64,000 bases of DNA, taken from NCBI GenBank assembly GCA_033065855.1, contig JAVXUO010001981.1:124001-188000 (forward strand), read 5' to 3'. Positions 1,086 through 58,440 of this stretch are shown here, piece after piece (position 1 is the stretch's first letter; every line of letters begins with the position of its first letter). The position numbers and the translations under genes are program-made. Below the pieces are notes generated by a model. The model saw only the letters and a program-made list of their open reading frames with translations, was not told where the DNA came from and did not search any database. The DNA is from Escallonia rubra (lineage: Eukaryota; Streptophyta; Magnoliopsida; Escalloniales; Escalloniaceae).

Positions 1086-1820
1086 TCCACCCCTTGAAAG
1101 AATTTGGTCCCCAAATTAATATATTAAACTTACCAAATAGGTGCGGATAATCATTTTGTATATTCTCCTCTTTTTCCTGTGCGACTCCCCCCACTTCATG
1201 ATTTCCCACAAAACTTTAACCAGAGGAATGCTCTTGTTCATCAAAACTTATCACATCAAAAGCTAAAATCTACACCGACAACTCTTCATATGAGATATCC
1301 GATTGGATTCATATCGGCTCAGGACTAATCAGATGAGATGTGTTAGGATAACCTTTCCTCAACATAGAAACATGGAACACATCATGTACTCTTCCAAAGA
1401 TACAGGCGAGGCAACTCAGTATGTCAAATTCCCAATACATTTGAATATTACATAAGGGCCAATATATCCCGATGAAAACTTGCCTTTCTTTCCCAATCTC
1501 TTTATTCCTTTGAATGGTGACACCTTAAAAAATACAAAATCTCTGAATGAAAATTCCACGTATCTTAGTCTGTTATCAGCATAACTTTTCTGTCGATTTA
1601 GAGCAGTTAAAATCTTTTGCCAAATTTGCTGAATCTTCTCAGCGGTCTCTTAAACTATTTGTGGTCCAATTAAACGTTTTTCCCCGCCTTCACTCCAACA
1701 AATCGTTTCTCGAGCCCTTTTGCTAATCGGGGCAAAAACTCCAAAAATTAAAAATGCCAAAAATTCAGTGAGCGACACTAGTCCATATAGAACTTCCTAT
1801 GGTGCCATACCGATACAATC

Positions 1821-2340
1821 TTAATAAATTTTATTATAAGTAAATTCAATCAATGCCAGATACTGATCCCAACTTCCTTTAAAATCGAGCATACATGCAC
1901 GAAGCATATCCTCCATTATCTGAATAGTTCTCTCAGATTGTCCATCAGTATGAGGATGAAATGCTGTGCTAAATTTCATGTTTGTACCTACAGCACTTTG
2001 CAAACTATTTAGAAATGCTATATAAATCTTTGATCTCTATCAGTTACAATATCGGTATTCCGTGCAGCCGAACTTTTTCTTGTACATACAAATTGGGCTA
2101 ATTTATCTAATGAGTATGTCTTAAGTACTAGTAGAAAATGAGCAGGTTTCGTCAATCCATCCACAATCGCCCATATCGAATCATGCCCATTACTAGTCCT
2201 TGGCAATCCATAACAAAATGCATCATTATATGGTCTCACTTCCATTCTGGTACTGGTAACGCTTTCAATCTACCCGCCACTCTTTGGTGTTCGGCTTTCA
2301 CTTTCATATTTTTCCACCAGTAATTACATTTCAAATGCTG
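1821..2340 (-). pseudogene. gypsy integrase region (fossil)
   Basis: Minus-strand reading gives the integrase core motif FHPHTDGQSERTI followed by MEDMLRACMLDF, which is typical of Ty3/gypsy pol. An adjacent stretch resembles the HPVGTTMYQHL zinc-binding region. In life this enzyme would join the cDNA to chromosomal DNA. This copy is a broken fossil and no function is proposed. Confidence 0.8.
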
Positions 2341-2899
2341 ATACATCGTCGTTCCAACTGGGTGCACTGTATACTTTGACTTAGGGGCCTCTTTCAATTT
2401 TTCTTGTCGAACTTCTTCGGCCTTTGCTTGTCCTAAAGCAAATGCCTTTCCCGAAAGTCTTGGTTTCCTCGTACCTCAGCCTGTACTCATTCCCTGCTTG
2501 CCACTTGGCTGAACTGGTTTTGGCCTCGGATTAGGAAAATCGTTCACATGGTGATCCAAGGATTCACAACCATAACATTTCCTTCCTTCTTCCAACAAGA
2601 ATCATAATCAGGCCCACCTTTGCCACAATAAGAATAAGTCAATTTGTACCCGTGTACTTGCTGAATTTACGGAGTTCTTAGCTCTCCCCTAGGTTACTGC
2701 ATGCTTTTGTGGTCGTTAGATGCCCCCACTATTTGCACTTTATTACCACTGGTGTTCAAGTTCCTTCCACCTTGTCAAGTCAAAAGATTTGGTCTAGTTT
2801 CACTTAACCATGCCCTTTTCCTTTGTATGTCTCCATCACTTTTCTTGGATTTCAGGCTTCAGACCATCTTGAAACTTTCTAACCCTCCTATCTTCTCCC

Positions 2900-5760: not shown

Positions 5761-7086
5761 CTGTCAACTTAATGTTAAATAGTAACATTTTATAAGAAAT
5801 GAATGCAAGTTTATATGAAGGAAAATGAAATTTTCCATTCATCAAACTTTGAGATGTGAGCAAACATATAATCGCGCAGTATAAAATAAATACACCTATA
5901 CACAAGTAAAGTAGCAGAAAGTACCTGCATGCGTAATCTATCAACTTCGATCATTATAAGCGACCCCAGATTCACGTAATCTACACAAGTAAAGTAGATT
6001 GTGACTTGATATATACTATATATGTATGCACAAAATTATAAGCCAACAAGCTAAGAAAATGCTGCAGATAATAGAGAGAGAGACGCTTACACACGTAGAA
6101 TAATAATGAGGACTGATTATGATACCTCGTATAATTTAGGATTTTCTCAACTCTCCTTTTGATTAAGAAGTATCCTGATGAAAGTAAAAATGAAGGTAGA
6201 ATGTAATATGCACTGATATCAAGGCGAACTTGGGAATTCCTGTATTCACAAGGTAAAATGGTTCAGTCATGCTTGCAAAATAGAGGTTACTGGAAACAGA
6301 CCTTTTAAGAAGTGTAAGAACCAGAGGATGATGTAAAGCTTATGTAGCAATCTAGTAAATTTGTTGTTGTTACCAAGCATAAACTTCGTTTGATAGAACA
6401 TGTAAAATACTTCAGACATCAATCAGGATGTAGTTACATGTTCTTGTCAGCGGTAAGAGCATGATATTTGAAGGCAAGTAGAAAAAAATATCATGACAAT
6501 TTCTTGGGTCCGCAGGCACTCTCACTTTGGATTTGCAAATATATTTCAAATGTAAACTTTCATTTCTGAAGCCATTACTAGATATGCAACGTCCTTCTTT
6601 CTAACTGTTAACTGAGTATTTGCATAAAATAGCTTCAAAGACTTCTTTTGCTTCATCTGAAAAGTATTACAGCCAAATATTAGTTGGAACCGTCCTACCT
6701 CTATCTACGAGTGTCCATTCATTAACAAAAGTAAGCATAAATACTTCACAAGGAAGCTCATAAAAAATAACACACTATAGAGGACTGGAAAGGTGAACAT
6801 GGATCTTGTGCTAATCATAAAAACTAGAAACTAAATACTCATGAAAGATAAATGCATCTCTTAACCCCAGGACCAATCTGTCAAACACGTTCTAAGTAGA
6901 TGTCCATGGAAACCCATTTCCAGAAGTCGGATATCAAGAATAAATACAACTTTTTTTTGCAACATTTACACAATTACTTCTTGGAAAGATGCCAAGGAAC
7001 AAAAGTTCTTTAGGGAAGAAAAAGGAAGATATGAGGGACCTTACCCTCAAAACTTACAGTGAAAAGCATCACAAAGGAAATCTTAC

Positions 7087-7233
7087 CATATTCTTTTGCA
7101 GCATTTACTGCAACAACGTTTGCCTCGCCATTAATCCTTTGCATCTGTTCCTCGCTACCAAATCCCCCAAGGGTTGAAACCATTGTTGTAGCCCCAGGAA
7201 GTACTTCATCCCAATTTGCATAGAAAACATCTC
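7087..7233 (-). pseudogene. captured exon of an At1g32220-like NAD(P)-binding Rossmann-fold gene
   Basis: The 147-nt minus-strand block reads DVFYANWDEVLPG, then a TMVSTLGGFGSEEQM segment, then INGEANVVAVNAAKEYG. This closely follows plant proteins annotated as chloroplast NAD(P)-binding Rossmann-fold proteins of the At1g32220 type (from memory of the family). The block is bounded by an acceptor (CTTGCAG) and a donor (GTAAGA) in correct positions, and it has no stop. Upstream exons would lie at higher coordinates, where the sequence is transposon and gypsy DNA. The following exon of the family was not found. It is therefore a single captured exon, not a gene. Its good preservation suggests recent capture or little time to decay; both are inference. 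Confidence 0.8.
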
Positions 7234-7383
7234 CTGCAAGATCTATATGATAAAGAACAATTTTCATTTCAAAGCAATTACCAATATGGTAGAAAGGCAA
7301 AGTCCAGACGGATATACCATCATTTATTTGCGGGACAACATGAATTTGACTTACTCAACATTTGGACTGATTATGATACCTTG

Positions 7384-7736
7384 TGTAACGTACCGGGGTA
7401 GAATCGAAGACCATACGCTGCCGTTTAGTGCATTTTCTGTTATTCCGTTTAAAATTTGATAATTAGCGATGTTTACTGTTGTTTCAATTTGTTACCACCC
7501 TCTCTATATAAAAGGCGTGATCTGTTAGTGAGATATATGAAAAATGTGAAATGAAATGACCAAAGCTTCTTTCTCTCTCTAAGCTGTTTCTGTTCTCTCT
7601 CGTTCTCTCTCTCTGGCTCTCTTCTGTTACCTTCTTCTTCTTCCATAGCTCAATTTCTTGCCACTCTTCTCTGTAATTGAGCTGAAATTCCACTTGAATA
7701 GCTATGGCCATAGTGTCTCATGCTCGATACGCTACA
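7384..7736 (+). repeat. left LTR of inverted-LTR unit
   Basis: It starts TGTAACGTACC and ends CGATACGCTACA. TATATAAAAGG near 7,505-7,515 looks like a TATA box, followed by a CT-rich leader typical of U5. It is followed two bases later by the primer site. Confidence 0.92.
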
Positions 7737-7738
7737 AT

Positions 7739-7750
7739 TGGTATCAGAGC
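7739..7750 (+). promoter_or_regulatory. primer binding site (initiator tRNA-Met)
   Basis: TGGTATCAGAGC lies two bases after the left LTR and is a perfect match to the usual plant Met-tRNA primer complement. No matching site lies next to the right, inverted LTR. Confidence 0.93.
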
Positions 7751-7838
7751 ATCTTAATTGGGGCCTGAACTAGTCGCTAGTTGTAGGAATTTCTTCTTAA
7801 CCTCACCATTTCCAAAATTCTTGTAAGAGCCTCATTCC

Positions 7839-8780
7839 ATGAAGAACAATCAGTTCATTGTAACTGAGATGCATGAACTCCAGGAAGTAATAGAAAATCG
7901 ATTTGCGGCATACGACGTAAGGATGAGTTCAGTCAAAGCTACTATTGGGGACCTTCAACGGAGCAACTCTGCCTTGCTCCAGAGTTTCACAGAAATCAAG
8001 TTTCAGTTAAGGAATTGCATGGCACATATCAACTCCACCTTAGAACTTCCACCGCATCAAGATCAAGGTGAATTTAACAAAAGCCAATTCCAGTATAAGC
8101 CTCCTGTTAATTATAATTCCTCCACTCAAGCTAGACACGAAGACTGGGAGCACAATCATCCATCATACGATCTGCAACACGGCTCCTTTGAGGCTACCTT
8201 TGGTGACTTACGGCTCATTAATGCATCAGATGACATGGATATGAGAAACTCTACTCCTCAATCAAATGGGAAGTTAAACGCAACCAGCACGCAGTCGGCA
8301 AATCATGCAAAGACGAGTGAAATGCAGTACTCTGTGGAGCATCTACAAGGACGCCACCTCCTATCATTCAGTGTCGCAAATTTACCACAGAATATCTAAT
8401 GGAGCTAGATAAAGAAGAGGATCAATTCATTGATGCTCTTCGCTGCTGTGAGCTTGAGTGCCGAACTCAAAGTTGAAATATGACGGAAGAAGATATTTGG
8501 CAGATTGAGCAATCACATGATATTTCATTGATGAACCTTTTCTCGTATCGACAACAAATGTCATCCGTCCATAAATATGTGGATGATTTTCTGCTACTTA
8601 GGCCTTGGGTTTCAATTTATTTAGGACGGGAACCTTCTGAAGAAATCAATGTCAAATGTTTTGTTGACGGTCTCAAGGCCGAAATCAAAGATCTGGTGTA
8701 TAAATGGAGTCCTTTGACATTATCAACAGCCGTTTTTGTGGCAAAAAAAAGGGGAAACTGCTTGTGAAGCCAAGGTGTTT
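7839..8780 (+). pseudogene. gag region of inverted-LTR unit (fossil)
   Basis: The first part (from 7,839) is a predicted coiled-coil-like N-terminus with heptad-spaced hydrophobics. A later part (8,480-8,767) carries VKCFVDGLKAEIKDLV, which matches the Retrotrans_gag C-terminal pattern of chromovirus gag proteins. In life gag would build the virus-like particle. It is a broken fossil with a few breaks. Confidence 0.7.
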
Positions 8781-8953
8781 GACGAAAGGTCCAAGAGAAG
8801 GCTCACCAACAATTGCTCAATTCTTTCCGTCTCTAAATCAACGACTCAAGATAGGGACATGTCAACTGAGCTAGTATACAATTTGGCGGTAGGCAGAGGT
8901 GAATCAGCGGTTTTAGGATGGGTTAATAAGAGCCATAAGCTCTTCTCTGTAAT

Positions 8954-9306
8954 TGTAGCGTATCGAGCATGAGACACTACGGCCATAGCTATTCAAGTGG
9001 AATTTTAGCTCAATTACAGAGAAGAGTGACAAGAAATTGAGCTATGGAAGAAGAATAAGGTAACAGAAGAGAGCCAGAGAGAGAGAACGAGAGAGAACAA
9101 AAACAGCTTAGAGAGAGAAAGAAGCTTTGGTCATTTCATTTCACATTTTTCATATATCTCACTAACAGTTCACGCCTCTTATATAGAGAGGGTGGTAACA
9201 AATTGAAACAACAGTAAACGTCGCTAATTATCAAATTTTAAACGGAATAACGGAAAATGCACTAAACAGCAGCGTATGGTCTTCGATTCTACCCCGGTAC
9301 GTTACA
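8954..9306 (-). repeat. right LTR of inverted-LTR unit (opposite orientation)
   Basis: This is the reverse complement of the left LTR with the same length of 353 bp, and ends CGGTACGTTACA. Just left of it (about 8,939-8,955) sits CTCTTCTCTGTAATTG, which is also an LTR-internal sequence in direct orientation. Confidence 0.92.
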
Positions 9307-9954
9307 CCTTGATTGTTACTTTCATTGGGATACTTCATAATTAGAGTCCAAAGAAAGATAAATCAAAATGAGAGTTGAGAAAATCCTAAATCCAGACAAC
9401 ATCTAAGCCATGTCCATTACAATCATCTTTGACCGAAACTCAAAATCAACATCAACACCAAAGCAAATTGAGCATAGATGCTTGACTAACCTAGACTGTC
9501 ATCGCCGCCGTCAAAGATAGTAGATCATTACCACCGTCGCCGTCAAAATACTAGATTGTAGCCGCCGCCCTCTACACAGTAGATTGCCGCTACCATGACC
9601 GGGTTGAATCAAAGAGAAAAGAGAAGGAAGACAGCGGCTGGCGAGGTTGAATCAGAGTCAAAGAGAAGAGAGATCGTGAGGAAGAGAAGAACGTGAGGAG
9701 AGAACGAGAGACCGTGAGTCGGGATTGGGCCTTAATGGGGTCGAATCGTAACGGGCTTGGAATTGCAAATTTGAGGTTGGACCTTAGGAATTAGACCGTG
9801 GACCTTAAAATAAAATTTTAATTTCATGAAAATTTAGTATGAATTGTAATTTCAATTCCAAATAAGCCGTCCAATCAACAGAATTATAATTCTAAAGGTC
9901 CAATTCTGAAATCTACCTCAATTTCAAGGCTAATTCCATGATCCAATCGGACCC

Positions 9955-10299
9955 TTAATCTAGTCTAGTCTAGAGGTAAACGACTAATGACGGGAGTGAA
10001 GAGGTAGACGTGATGCTCGTGGTTCGTGGGTTTCTGAGGTGATTCTGGTTATTGTGGGTCGAGCGATTTGATTGAAGATGAAAAAGAAAAAAATTGAAGG
10101 AAATCAAAGTTATTTGTGAAGCTACCGAGGGATGCTAAGGTATAATTCATTTAAGAGGAAATATTTTTTCGGTTGTAAGTTTCAGAATAAATCTTAATCT
10201 AATTTTAAATCAACTTTAAATTATATTAAAAAAATAATTTATTGTAGGGATTTATTTTGATAAAAGCAATTTTAATGGACAAAAAAGACCAAAAATTTA
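9955..10299. other. unassigned spacer between two TIR elements
   Basis: AT-rich sequence with no recognised gene or repeat. It may be continuation of the LTR interrupted at 4,248, which I could not establish. It ends in TTA, the target duplication of the next element. Confidence 0.5.
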
Positions 10300-11015: not shown

Positions 11016-12528
11016 CGTAACGTTTGGAACCAATTCTTTTAGGATTTGGATTTCAAATTTGGAATTGGAATTGGAATTGGATTTGGAATTCAATTCATTT
11101 TTTTCTGTTTGGAACGAAAAGGAATTCAAATCACGGAATTCCAATTTTGTGTTTGGAGAACAAAGGAAATGGAAAGATAATAAATTTTTAGACAATAATA
11201 TCCTTGACTTACGATGAAAAATAAATTACGATAAGTGGTTACAAGTGTGCTAGTGCCACCACATGGTGGTGTGGTGGTGGCAGCAGCATTGCACAGGGTA
11301 GCAACATCGACGGTGGAAGTGGTGGGGTGTCAAGTGATGGTAATGATGGTAGTGGTGGTATTGAGGTGTAACAACGTGTAACTGGTGGTCGTCAAGTGAC
11401 GCCAATAATGATGCCGGTGGCAGTGGTGGTGGCAATAGTGATGGTGGCGACGGTGGCAGTAGTGATGTCAGTGACGGTGATGGTGGTGGCGACAGTGATG
11501 GTAGCGGTGGTGGCGGCAGTGGTGGCAATAGTGGCGGCAGTGGTGATGGTGGTGGTGGCAGTTATGGTGGCGACGGTGGTGGTGGTGGTGGTGGAATTAT
11601 TAGTGGATGTGGCGGTGACAGCGGTGGTGGTGGTGGCAATAGTGGAGGCGGTGGTGGTGGCAGTAATGGTGGCGATGGTGGTAGTTGTGGTAGTACTGGT
11701 GGTGGTGGTGGCGGTGGTGGTAGTAGTGGTGGTGGCGGTGGTGGTAGTAGTGGTGGCGACGGTGGTAGTTGTGGCAGTACTGGCGGTGCTGGTGGTGGCA
11801 ATGGTGCTGGTGGTGGTGGTGGCGACGATGGTAGTTGTGGCAGTAGTGGTGGCGACGGTGCTAGTTGTGGTAGTACTGGCGGTGGAGGTAGTGGTGGGGG
11901 ATGCAGTGGCGGTGGTGGTGGCAGTAGTGATGATGGTGGCATTAGTAGTGGCAGCGACAATAGTAGTAGTGGCAGCGACAATAGTAGTTGTGGCACTACT
12001 AGCAGTGTTGGCGGTGACGGTAGTGGTGGCGGCGGTGGTGGTTGTAGTGGTGGCTGAGGTGGTGGCAGTGGCGGTAGTGTTAGCAGTGGTTGTGGCGGCA
12101 GCAACAGTGGTAATGGTGGCGGCGGTGGTGATGGCGGTGGTGGTGGCAGCAACGACGGTGGTGGTGGCGACAGTAGTGGTGGTGGTAGTAGTGGTGGTAG
12201 TAGTGGTGCCGGTGGTGGTGGTGGTGGCAGTAGTGGTACCGGTGGTGGTAGTAAAAGTGGTGTGGCGGTAGCGGCAATGAAGATGGTGGTGGTTGGTTCA
12301 TTGTTGGAGAGATTCAGAAAAAGGGTAAGATATGTAAATAATTACTTTTAATTCAAGTAAATCGAAATCCCATGAAAGCCTACCATTTTTCATCGGATTT
12401 CACAATAAAGAAACAAATCCAGTCAAATCCCATGAAATCCAATTCCAATTCCTTTTTTTTAATGTTCCAAACAAAAAAATTTGAGGATTTGAAATGAAAT
12501 TCCATCAATTCCATGGTTCCAAACACAC
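11016..12528. mobile_element. inner TIR element enclosing GGT array
   Basis: Arms containing GTTTGGAACCA near 11,022 and, inverted, TGGTTCCAAAC near 12,514-12,524 face each other. Both continue into GGATTTGG/GGAATTGGAATTGG-rich arms of about 100-150 bp. Possible TTTTA flanks are seen on both sides, but exact ends are uncertain. No coding sequence was recognised. The family is not assigned; it could be a foldback or hAT-like non-autonomous element. Confidence 0.5.
11260..12295. repeat. GGT/GGC/AGT trinucleotide-based array, about 1 kb
   Basis: Nearly every triplet is GGT, GGC, AGT, GAC, GAT or AAT in one register. One plus-strand frame is almost pure Gly/Ser/Asp/Asn and stays open for several hundred codons, but starts without ATG. 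The other frames give Val/Ala and, on the minus strand, Pro/Leu strings. Codon content is explained by the repeat, so I do not call a gene. The G-rich strand has many GG pairs and could form quadruplex-like structures, which is inference. Confidence 0.85.
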
Positions 12529-16830: not shown

Positions 16831-18532
16831 CAAATTAGGATTAGGGTTAGGGTTTCTTGAACAGGGAGAAGGTGAATAGTGAAAATTTAACAGGCATTCC
16901 CTATTTAGATTTTAAAGAGCTGTTTAGAGGTTGATTTAGGCAAAGTGTGAAACTAAAAACCCCCTTATTTTTACAAAACCTAGACCTTGAAATTTTCTAA
17001 GATTTTTCTAAGCATGTGAAGTGCATGCAATGGTATTATTTTGAAAAAGGGCATTTGAATTATTTGATATAGAAAACCAACCTATTTATAGCCGAAACTT
17101 TTACAGTGACCTCATTTTATTGTGACACTTAAGTGTCTAAAATTTTATGGCATTTCAATGCCGATTGTTGTGCTCTTGAAATATGGCCCGTAACGTTCAA
17201 TTAAAGGAGTGAGTTAGAATTTTGAGCAGAAAATCCCCAGAGAGACCTTTTAGTCCGAAAAACCCACCTAGTCATTTAAAAGGATATTTTGGGTCATTTT
17301 TTTGGTGTGAAATGGTACGTTAGGTATCAAGGGCATTTTGGTAACTTTACACAAGTCTGTTGGTATTTTGGTAATTTCATTCACTTGGGAGAAATTTAGC
17401 AGTCAGGCATGATTGAGCGCTAAGGATTAACACCGGTATGGTTTATCATTTAGGTTTCGATAGACGAGAGCTAGGATCGGCATTTGACCAAGTGTCAAAA
17501 TCGGTTATCGAGTCAATTAAGTATTCCTGTCATGTTCCTCCGTATACCATACTTTCTAATATATGTAAACGTGTACATGATTTTATCAAACGAAAACTTA
17601 AAAGTCTTTGTATTGCTTGTGCTTTCATGTTAAATTGTTTGACTAGAAAATGAATTAAAAATATCACGGAATGTGTTGCGTTTGGTTATTGTGAACTCTG
17701 TTTAAATTGTCGTATCAAGATGTTAATTTTGGCGATTGTGCCCCATATCCACTGGAGAAAGTGAAATTCTGAGTCCTGGTCAATGGGACCATATGTTGGC
17801 GTACATGACTGTTGCTCGTGGTTTGCCCCTACGACCACAATATTATTTATCTCGGGTTGAGGATGGATTCTGGGTCCTAGTCAATGGGACCATACGCTTA
17901 CCGCAGTATACCTAAGTTGTGATTAACTATGATAGTTGTTTGATGAGCTTTCGTGATGTCATACTCCGGTTCTGAGAATCTTTTTTGTACAAGTACATAT
18001 CCGTATACAATAAAACAATTTTTCGTTATGGTGATATTGATTTCCTGATCTTGAAAAGAAAATTCATGGCATGTTTTGAAATCCTCAAATCTATTTTCAG
18101 GACATGGTTTGTGTGCTTGCTCAGCTCTCACTCATTCCTTTATTTTTCAGATGAAGATCTAGGAGAGGTGGAACCCTATCAGCAACACGAGGGAGAGGCG
18201 CCAGAAGAGATCCATTAGAGTGATGGAATGTCTGTTAGACTCAAGAACTTTAGTGTTGTGATTGTGGACGGATAAACTTATGTAGGGAGCTTAGGCCTCC
18301 TAAATTTCTTTATAATTTTCAGTGACATGTGATTGAAGTTTATTTCTAACAGTTGAGGAACTTCTAAGTGCGGCTCTTAATAGCCAATTAATTAATCTAG
18401 AATCTAATGAGTTTGTTTGAATCTTGAGTACAGGTTATAGTAGGCCTAGCATAGCCCCATTAGAGGTTTAGTGGGTCTGCGGCCGGTCATGGACCTAGCT
18501 CATGGGGTCACCCATGGGTTTGGGTCGTGACA
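15868..18532 (+). repeat. 5' LTR of plus-strand gypsy fossil
   Basis: Starts TGTAATGCC and ends GGGTCGTGACA, 2,665 bp, followed by the primer site. It shares segments with the solo LTR at 22,380-25,214, for example GTTGTGCCCCATATCCA near 17,735 and 24,400. It contains an AG microsatellite at 16,793-16,826 and repeated TTTGGTAATTT motifs near 17,330-17,400. Confidence 0.85.
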
Positions 18533-55640: not shown

Positions 55641-56480
55641 TGGGATGTACAAGGGCTAATTAGGGCTAACTGGGTTATTAGGGTTAATTACGATTATTAA
55701 TTATAGCTGATTAGAGTTGATTAGGACTAATTAGGGTTATTTAGTCCTAATTAGGGTTTAATTGTGCCGAGTAGTGATGATTAGTCCTAATTAGGGCTAA
55801 TTGGGCTTAATTGGGTTATGTTAGGGCTAATTAATGTTAATGAGGGATAGTTTCGGATGATTATAGCTGACTAGGGTTGATTAGGACTAATTAGAGTTAT
55901 GTAGTCCTAATTAGGGTTTAATTGTGCCGAGTAGTGCTGATTAGTCCTAATTAGGGCTAATTAGGCTTAATTGGGTTATGTTATGGCTAATTAATGTTAA
56001 TGAGGGCTAGTTTCGGATAATTATAGCTAATTAGGGTTGATTATGACTAATTAGGGTTTAATTGTGCCGAGTAGTGATGATTAGTCCTAATTAGGGCTAA
56101 TTAGGCTTAATTGGGTTATGTTAGAGCTAATTAATGTTAATGAGGGCTAGTTTCGAATAATTATAGCTAATTAGGGTTGATTAGGACTAATTAGGGTTAT
56201 TTAGTCCTAATTAGGGTTTTGATGGTGCCGAGTAGTGTTGATTAGTCCTAACTAGCGCTAATTAGGCATAATTGGGTTATGTTAGTGCAAATTATGACTA
56301 ATTAGGCTAACTACAATCAATATGCGCATAATTGGGTTCATTTGGGCTAATTTGGGGTAATTACAGCTAATTTGAATTTCATCAGGTTCTTAGGGTTAAT
56401 TAAAACTAATTAGGCTCGTTAGAGCTAATTAGGGTTAATTGATTTATTAAAATATTGTTAATCAGGACTAATTAGGGCTA
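55640..56480. repeat. CACTA leader array 1: TTAGGG/CTAATTAGG type, about 160-bp period
   Basis: GTGCCGAGTAGTG recurs at 55,764, 55,924, 56,064 and 56,225 (spacings 160, 140 and 161). The filler is short CTAATTAGGG and TTAATTAGGG words. Confidence 0.9.
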
Positions 56481-56574
56481 ATTATAGCCAGCACTGGAGC
56501 CACGATTAGATTCCAGGGGGTGCATGCTAAAAATGTCGCATTAACCTAACTAACCTAAATTTAATGTACATTCA

Positions 56575-57145
56575 ACAACCTCAATTCCGACACCTCATAT
56601 AGGGTGTCGATATGGTGTCCGATACGTGTCTGACACCTCCAGACACGTGTCCGACACATACCGACGCGTGTCCGACGCCTCTGGACACGTGTCCGACGGC
56701 GTCGGACACGTGTCCGTCGCCCACCGACACGCACCTCCAGACACATCGGCATACGTTAATTTGTTTTTTAAATGCTGGACACCGTCGATCAAACGTGGTG
56801 TCCGTGTCTGCGCTAACTAACATGTATCCCAATCCAATTGGGTCTCATCCTCCGTCAACAACCTCAATTCCGACACCTCATATAGGGTGTCGATATGGTG
56901 TCCGATACGTGTCTGACACCTCCGGACACATGTCCGACACATACCGATACGTGTCTGACACCTCCGGACACGTGTCTGACACATACCGACACGTGTCCGA
57001 CGCCTTTGGACACGTGTCCGACGCCCACCGACACGCACCTCCAGACACATCGGCATACGTTAATTTGTTTTTTAAATGTCGAACACCGTCGATCAGACGT
57101 GGTGTCCGTGTCTGCGCTAACTAACAGGTATCTCAATCCAATTGG
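56575..57145. repeat. CACTA leader array 2: 283-bp repeat with GACACGTGTC palindromes
   Basis: TCAATTCCGACACC starts two copies at 56,581 and 56,864, 283 bp apart. Each copy contains about six CACGTGTC, GACACGTG or near-palindromic GACACGTGTC words, with CACGTG at the core. A degenerate third start lies near 57,160. Reading frames in this array (Asp/Thr/Cys-rich) are by-products of the repeat. Confidence 0.92.
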
Positions 57146-57500
57146 GTCCCATCCTCCGTCAAGAATCTCAATTCTCAATTCTCAATTCTCAAATGCTCAA
57201 TGCAATAAAAATTAACAAAAATCACACATTCAATCCAATTGGGTCCCATCCTCCGTCAATAATCTCAATATCTCAAATGCTCAATGCACAATTAATAATC
57301 TAAAATCATCAATTAACAACCTAAAATCATCAATTAATAATCGCAATTACTTCAAATGCACAGCTAATAACCTAAAATCATCGATCAGTAATCACAATTC
57401 TAAAACACACAATTAACAACCTAAAATTATCAAACAAATGATCAATGTTCAAATGGGAAAAAAATGTTCAAAATTCACATATCCGATGCGCTTGAATTAT
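57146..57500. repeat. CACTA leader: AT-rich CTCAAT/AATCATCAA degenerate repeats
   Basis: Short words such as CTCAATTCTCAA and CTAAAATCATCAATTAA recur several times. No gene. Confidence 0.7.
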
Positions 57501-58440
57501 TTCAATTTAGGGTTCGATTGTATTAGGGCATTCAATTTAGGGTTCAATTAGTTTCATTTAGGGTTCGGTTCGATTAGGGCATTCAATTTAGGGTTCAATT
57601 ACTTCAATTTAGGGTTCAATTAGGGGGTTCTATTGATTCAATTTAGGGTTCAGTTGATTTGAGACATTAAATTTAGGGTTCAATTACTTCAATTTAGGGT
57701 TCAATTAGGGGGTTCTATTGATTCAATTTAGGGTTCAGTTGATTTGAGGCATTAAATTTAGGGTTCAATTAGTTCAATTTAGGGTTCGGTTGGATTAGGG
57801 CATTCAATTTGGGGTTCAATTAGGGTTCGGTTAGATTGGGGCAATCAATTTATGGTTTAATTAGGAGTTCAATTAGTTTAATTTAGGATTCGATTCAATT
57901 AGGGCATTCAATTTAGGGTTCAATTACTTCAATTTAGGGTTCAATTAGGAGGTTCTATTGATTCAATTTAGGGTTCGGTTGATTTGAGGCATTCAATTTA
58001 GGGTTCAATTAGTTCAATTTAGGGTTCAGTTGGATTAGGGCATTCAATTTAGGGTTCAATTAGGGTTCGGTTAGATTGGGGCAATCAATTTAGGGTTTAA
58101 TTAGGGGTTCAATTAGTTTAATTTAGGGTTCGATTCAATTAGGGCATTCAATTTAGGGTTCAATTACTTCAATTTAGGGTTCAATTAGGGGGCTCTATTG
58201 ATTCAATTTAGGGTTCGGTTGATTTGAGGCATTCAATTTAGGGTTCAATTAGTTCAATTTAGGGTTCGGTTGGATTAGGGCATTCAATTTAGGGTTCAAT
58301 TAGGGTTCGGTTAGATTGGGGCAATCAATTTAGGGTTTAATTAGGGGTTCAATTAGTTTAATTTAGGGTTCGATTCAATTGGGGTTTTGGGTTTTGGGTT
58401 TTGGGTTTTGGGTTTTGGGTTTAGAGTTTAGGGTTTTGGG
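57500..58440. repeat. CACTA leader array 3: 240-bp higher-order repeat of TTTAGGG-bearing units
   Basis: GCAATCAATTTA(T/G)GGTTTAA recurs at 57,841, 58,081 and 58,321, exactly 240 bp apart. Each 240-bp copy is made of roughly 18-20 bp units such as CAATTTAGGGTTCAATTAG. TTTAGGG is the plant telomere unit. From 58,383 a run of GGGTTTT words follows, about 55 bp. Confidence 0.95.

Follow-up and report, generated by a model that had tools for sequence, protein, structure and literature searches.

An LTR retrotransposon insertion in Escallonia rubra with opposed LTRs and U3 at both outer ends, probably derived from a strand-switched cDNA

In the genome of Escallonia rubra (566 Mb in 3,222 contigs), we analyzed a stretch of 64,000 nucleotides (C1307:124001-188000, hereafter the window) that carries, at 7379-9311, a short LTR element whose two LTRs face each other, with U3 at both outer ends and a perfect 5-bp target duplication around the whole. 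We consider it probable, at roughly 0.7, that an integrase inserted this unit in one event, as an aberrant cDNA from a short non-autonomous LTR retrotransposon, and that the aberration arose by strand switching during reverse transcription. In a normal LTR element, the cDNA ends in U3 on one side and in U5 on the other, and descriptions of integrase generally have it act on this combination. The window unit, together with a mirror-image insertion elsewhere in the genome that has U5 at both ends, suggests that reverse transcriptase sometimes copies a new DNA strand back on itself, and that integrase takes two identical ends.

The unit proper occupies 7384-9306 (1,923 bp, with an interior of about 1.2 kb), and the target duplication CCTTG lies flush with both of its U3 ends, at 7379-7383 and 9307-9311. 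Its left LTR (7384-7736, plus strand) is in sense orientation (U3-R-U5), starting with TGTAACG and ending with CTACA. After a 2-nt linker, AT, it is followed by the PBS TGGTATCAGAGC (7739-7750, plus strand), which we take to be of the initiator-tRNA type and which occupies the same place in copies with direct LTRs. The interior continues on the plus strand with a gag-like region (7751-8870) whose reading frame is not intact and which shares 95-96% identity with the direct copies on C1929 and C79, and then with the first ~73 bp (8870-8942) of the post-gag segment of the subfamily, where another member of the family, L010, has a piece of a SART-1-type host gene. The interior ends at 8942, missing 583 bp that include the PPT, and a 16-bp sense fragment of the LTR (8940-8955, equal to 7664-7679) bridges it to the right LTR (8954-9306, minus strand), which is complete, antisense and again has its U3 end outermost. 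Within the family, the unit sides with the L010-type subfamily. The inverted arms (7383-7739 and 8951-9307) are 97% complementary, and between the two LTRs there are 10 differences in 353 aligned bases (2.8%), 8 of them transitions; both LTRs retain a TATA-like box, located at LTR offset 120. The original prediction had described two 353-bp LTRs, about 3% apart and opposed, with U3 at both outer ends, and the arm alignment bears this out to the base. The perfect CCTTG duplication that it had reported is likewise present, a match that arises by chance with a frequency of 0.0016 (random 5-mers, two 500-bp flanks).

The locus has a second copy on the same contig: 62 kb off, the window sequence 6597-9957 (less the element) recurs as an inverted paralogous copy with 97-99% identity, for which either a segmental duplication or a haplotype join may account. 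This copy (L041; C1307:66900-69800, minus strand) is unbroken across the insertion site, with one CCTTG, and matches the flanks of the window unit at 98.9% over 787 bases on the left and at 96.9% over 651 bases on the right. On another contig, C1425 (L042), both flanks are matched contiguously without the element, and the site there reads CCTTC. Since the empty paralogous site on C1307 carries a single CCTTG, the 1,923-bp unit is one insertion; judged from these alignments, an insertion event that added 7384-9306 plus one CCTTG is well supported. The idea that the unit had integrated in its present form, put forward earlier with a proposal to look for an empty site carrying a single CCTTG, is thus supported by the duplication and by a site of exactly this kind, which exists as a paralogous site in the same genome. 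An exon-like repeat at 6134-6205 was also considered as the empty site, but adding the left flank did no better than random 35-mers, 520 of 2,000 of which reached the observed score.

Other members of the family were sought with the LTRs, the interior and the 3' part as queries, the best 40 of 45-124 candidates being scored for each. The family consists of short LTR elements with PBS, PPT, LTRs of ~335-425 bp and TGT..ACA ends. In the ten two-LTR loci inspected, the PPT GGGGTTGGGAA or close variants adjoins TGTAAC, and all six of the loci tested from this set have a 5-bp target duplication. For the survey of LTR orientation in other copies that the original prediction had proposed, we paired LTRs within 16 kb, left out repeated places and small fragments (e.g. 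C1999:8961-8991), and entered C2847, with LTRs 15.7 kb apart, as one interrupted direct element. Among the matches listed, at least 60 distinct LTR places resolved into 19 direct pairs (15 of them spanning 1.2-2.5 kb), 2 inverted pairs and 18 unpaired LTRs. Direct orientation is therefore found in 19 of 21 pairs among these matches, or in 19 of the 20 besides the window unit, the one exception lying on C11; at least four further direct pairs recognized by eye (C1477, C1696, C905 and C2331) came with no added inverted pair. Two of the loci, L013 and L014, have their duplication in common and are apparently a single insertion that was duplicated, and C734 and C2493, with a common flank and duplication, are probably also one duplicated insertion. 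Between gag and PPT, Pfam matches were obtained to the SART-1 family in L010:2802-3203 (E 2.8e-12) and to Methyltransf_29 in L018:1372-2268 (minus strand; E 2.9e-28). Because these host-gene fragments differ between two subfamilies, the family seems to have captured host transcripts at least twice.

Across six direct pairs, the LTRs show 4-16 differences, a range that includes the 10 of 353 in the window unit, and the unit is likely similar in age to these pairs, provided that its LTRs were alike at insertion. When 22 LTRs were aligned at the ten differing sites, the odd state was found in none of the other 20 LTRs at three sites and in one or two scattered LTRs at five; at the remaining two, it occurs in both LTRs of C1094, which are joined at one of the sites by C2988 and C11. 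The ten differences thus do not all appear to be simple later mutations, which makes a second template possible for the window unit and the dating soft. We have set our confidence in the best explanation slightly lower because of this possible second template.

The other inverted pair, at C11:98626-102536, is the mirror image of the window unit. It consists of an antisense LTR, antisense interior, a fold at ~100695, sense interior and a sense LTR, with U5 outermost at both ends and GATGG on each side as a perfect 5-bp duplication. Empty paralogous sites on C2051 and C1030 carry one GATGG each, with flank identities of 84-88%, and the flank matches on both contigs overlap by four duplication bases common to both queries. 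Between the two LTRs of the C11 unit there are 67 differences in 335 aligned sites; identity is 98% for the antisense LTR with that of C1701 and 93% for the sense LTR with that of C2221. As the two halves match different subfamilies, two templates appear to have met. The fold connects element coordinates 165 and 168 of 1,789, i.e. positions 3 nt apart, a closeness with P = 0.003 for two random breakpoints, although it was spotted after the fact.

Three more copies with rearranged LTR sequence were found. The first (L046; C1701:16668-18122) is a young element of 1,455 bp whose LTRs are direct and differ at 5 of 426 columns; its duplication is AGAGG. Its interior runs through gag, 87 bp of antisense U3, the antisense PPT region, a fold at 17530 and the sense PPT region to the LTR, and the two arms of the fold-back agree at 238 of 245 positions; this arrangement would fit a minus strand which, after folding back, switched to the RNA again. 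On C1999 (L024:2950-3328), an antisense LTR with its U3 end outward follows linker bases and a sense piece of that same LTR. Neither a left LTR, within the 3 kb examined, nor a matching duplication was seen, and we therefore did not count this locus as an inverted case; possibly, it is a one-ended relative of the window unit. C1418 (L030:2776-3203) was considered as a further case and rejected. It is a solo LTR with the duplication CCATG and inverted LTR pieces inside, and as its inside carries a 26-bp copy of host flank, it is better explained by templated repair after insertion.

The joints themselves show short overlaps. In the window unit, the 16-bp fragment shares CTC (3 bp) with the sequence on its left and AATTG (5 bp, 8951-8955) with that on its right; the C11 fold has an overlap of 3 bp (GCA), and the joint between gag and antisense U3 in C1701 one of 8 bp. 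Taken together, the overlaps at these four joints (5, 3, 3 and 8 bp; the C1701 fold is outside this set) exceed chance, with a Fisher P of 5e-6, or 0.0014 without C1701, against a null of random joints within one copy (L010) in which relatives substitute for the lost parents. A pattern search of the genome allowing up to 3 mismatches returned one occurrence each of the window joint and of the C11 fold and revealed no amplification of either. Being unique, joint and fold have the appearance of dead-end products rather than of a new replicating element.

We suggest that these structures arose by strand switching in reverse transcription. Plus strands begin at the PPT and therefore have U3 at their 5' ends, and minus strands begin at the tRNA and have U5 there. 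It follows that a switch of a plus strand onto another plus strand gives U3 at both ends, and that a switch of a minus strand onto a minus strand gives U5 at both. For the window unit, a nascent plus strand comprising U3-R-U5 and the linker, copied as far as the primer, would have left its template and annealed through AATT(G) to a same-sense strand in U5, where ~11 nt would have been copied in antisense. A second switch, mediated by CTC (which reads GAG on the copied strand), would have led to a point close to where the SART-1-type segment starts; from there, copying would have run on to the U3 end of that same-sense strand, yielding a duplex with U3 on both sides. An integrase, presumably of the type belonging to the element, would finally have joined both U3 ends to the target at the usual stagger of 5 bp. 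In the C11 counterpart, a minus strand would have switched onto another minus strand, leaving two U5 ends. Both halves of what the original prediction had framed as an either/or, namely an integrase joining two U3 ends or the use of a rearranged cDNA, are supported in this reading as parts of one event. The canonical, complete termini at both ends of the window unit speak for this explanation, as do the empty sites, the C11 mirror image, the C1701 fold-back, the overlaps at the joints and an LTR divergence within the range of direct pairs. Against it stands the need, in the plus-strand version, for two switches 11-16 nt apart; no replication intermediate of the switch was seen, and the like-ended insertions found among the matches listed are two, from one family in one genome. 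Defective retrovirus DNA produced by nascent-strand switching was reportedly described by Olsen and Swanstrom (1985).

The inner LTR terminus of the window unit sits within the AATTG overlap, and so the joining of an exact LTR end, as in autointegration, also fits the window copy by itself. By autointegration or intermolecular half-site integration, a U5 end would attack the U5 of another cDNA, and the product would integrate via its two U3 ends. The joint can be read accordingly, as a target ..GTAAT followed by the exact LTR terminus TGTAGCG, and inverted-LTR circles are reported as products of autointegration in the accessible text of one study (PMC4751563). However, the donor must then have been one LTR long, as otherwise antisense PPT and interior would follow the U3, and none is present. 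The 5-bp overlap is not expected from such a reaction (P = 0.006), the similar joint at C1999 retains linker bases past U5, and the folds of C11 and C1701 lie away from LTR termini; we therefore think autointegration unlikely. The 3-8 bp overlaps and the 16-bp patch are also compatible with a head-to-head fusion of two broken cDNAs through host microhomology end joining, the dimer being integrated via its outer ends, and this would agree with the two subfamilies that supply the C11 halves. Yet these halves break at most 3 nt apart in the element coordinate (P = 0.003), and C1701, beyond its fold, is back at a normal gag-PBS end, an outcome not readily produced by end joining, making this an improbable origin in our view. 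Both autointegration and the end joining of broken cDNAs retain some probability, but they fit C11 and C1701 worse than strand switching does.

The remaining accounts place the inversion after insertion or outside biology altogether. C1418 demonstrates that inverted LTR pieces can arise in an old copy, with copied host flank, and the right LTR of an ordinary element might similarly have been inverted or repaired from a template. In the window unit, however, both termini are exact for a complete LTR, with the U3 end flush with the duplication, and the interior end bears an LTR-fragment joint as well; C11 would moreover require a like accident, with U5 exact. An assembly artefact, from a fold-back read or a misjoined repeat, would be in keeping with a structure known from the assembled contig alone and with the inverted paralogue of the locus that this contig carries at a distance of 62 kb. 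Against an artefact speak the 10 differences in 353 bases between the arms, the canonical ends, the perfect duplication and the independent mirror-image case. The U5/U5 insertion on C11, with its two empty sites, renders both accounts very unlikely: we see hardly any room for a change after insertion, and still less for an assembly error. A nested insertion was considered as the origin of the window unit and rejected.

With its TG..CA ends, a PBS just inside the 5' LTR and a 5-bp duplication, the window unit resembles an LTR retrotransposon; direct LTRs and a PPT upstream of the 3' LTR are the features that it lacks. The label Gypsy, given in the original prediction, was not confirmed, as it relies on a Ty3_capsid match below the Pfam cut-off (E 0.04) in the relative L018 and on the 5-bp duplication, and none of the Pfam matches of four pieces of the window is to a gag family; membership in Ty3/gypsy is nevertheless probable. 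A DNA transposon with terminal inverted repeats, or a MITE, does not fit, since the family is not defined by such repeats (19 of 21 pairs are direct among the matches listed). DIRS retrotransposons have inverted terminal repeats, make no target duplication and use a tyrosine recombinase; the 5-bp duplication of the window unit speaks against this class. The Pfam matches of the four window pieces include no tyrosine recombinase family. The family shares LTR size, ends, PBS, a PPT next to U3 and the 5-bp duplication with short plant elements of the TRIM or LARD kind, whereas the window unit departs from them in its opposed LTRs, its two outer U3 ends and the loss of the PPT along with 583 bp of interior.

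Several published cases come close to parts of this structure. Rice has tandem LTR retrotransposon insertions that, in the accessible text, are described with a complex LTR structure, a single retrotransposition, a target duplication and an empty allele (PMC11899658); unlike the window unit they are tandem, and that portion of the text contains neither 'opposite orientation' nor 'head-to-head'. In cucumber, two elements with oppositely directed LTRs were removed in curation (PMC4600303), and in grape there are TRIM loci whose LTRs point opposite ways (PMC7166211). Both resemble the window unit in having opposed LTRs of the same family nearby, but the available parts of these two papers give no target duplication, empty site or mechanism. 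The autointegration products of Ty1 and retroviruses share with the window unit inverted LTRs made before chromosomal integration, and differ, according to the text at hand, in being circular, in arising by integrase attack at an LTR terminus and in having no host duplication (PMC4751563). Several retroviral integrases carry out concerted integration of two U5 oligonucleotides in vitro, as stated in the accessible portion of PMC3790719; two identical ends are joined there as here, albeit by purified enzyme and with short oligonucleotides instead of a chromosomal insertion through U3 ends. Among the titles listed and in the open-licence texts available, subscription papers being mostly outside this scope, we found no description of an opposed-LTR element with a target duplication.

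A U3/U3 and a U5/U5 chromosomal insertion, with normal duplications and empty-site checks, provide in vivo evidence that the integrase concerned accepts like ends, and we read such insertions as a record of DNA-on-DNA strand switching that is otherwise hard to see. An opposed pair of same-family LTRs with a perfect target duplication makes a searchable signature, for a class that was dropped in at least one published curation, going by the accessible text (PMC4600303). Since both U3 promoters of the U3/U3 form face inward, its transcripts can fold on R-U5, and the window unit, judging from its inward-facing LTRs and the TATA-like box in each, could give rise to R-U5 hairpin transcripts. Speculatively, and with considerable doubt, like-ended cDNAs (U3/U3 and U5/U5) might be a regular by-product of strand switching in plant LTR elements, inserted into the germline by integrases and hidden by tools that expect direct LTRs, and a U3/U3 insertion could then be a source of hairpin RNA silencing the whole family. 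Mu killer, which silences Mutator, is a precedent for silencing by hairpin RNA.

The surroundings of the unit contain further sequence of interest. Short exon-like pieces of a decayed gene recur around the insertion site in both orientations (6110-6205 and 7364-9391). An open reading frame at 7010-7354 (minus strand) has no Pfam match and presumably resembles a plant NAD(P)-binding protein, and broken frames at 1416-2475 (minus strand) resemble what we take to be a gypsy-type integrase. A long array of short, low-complexity units, and tandem repeats of greater length, are present at 11394-12300 and 55694-58400.
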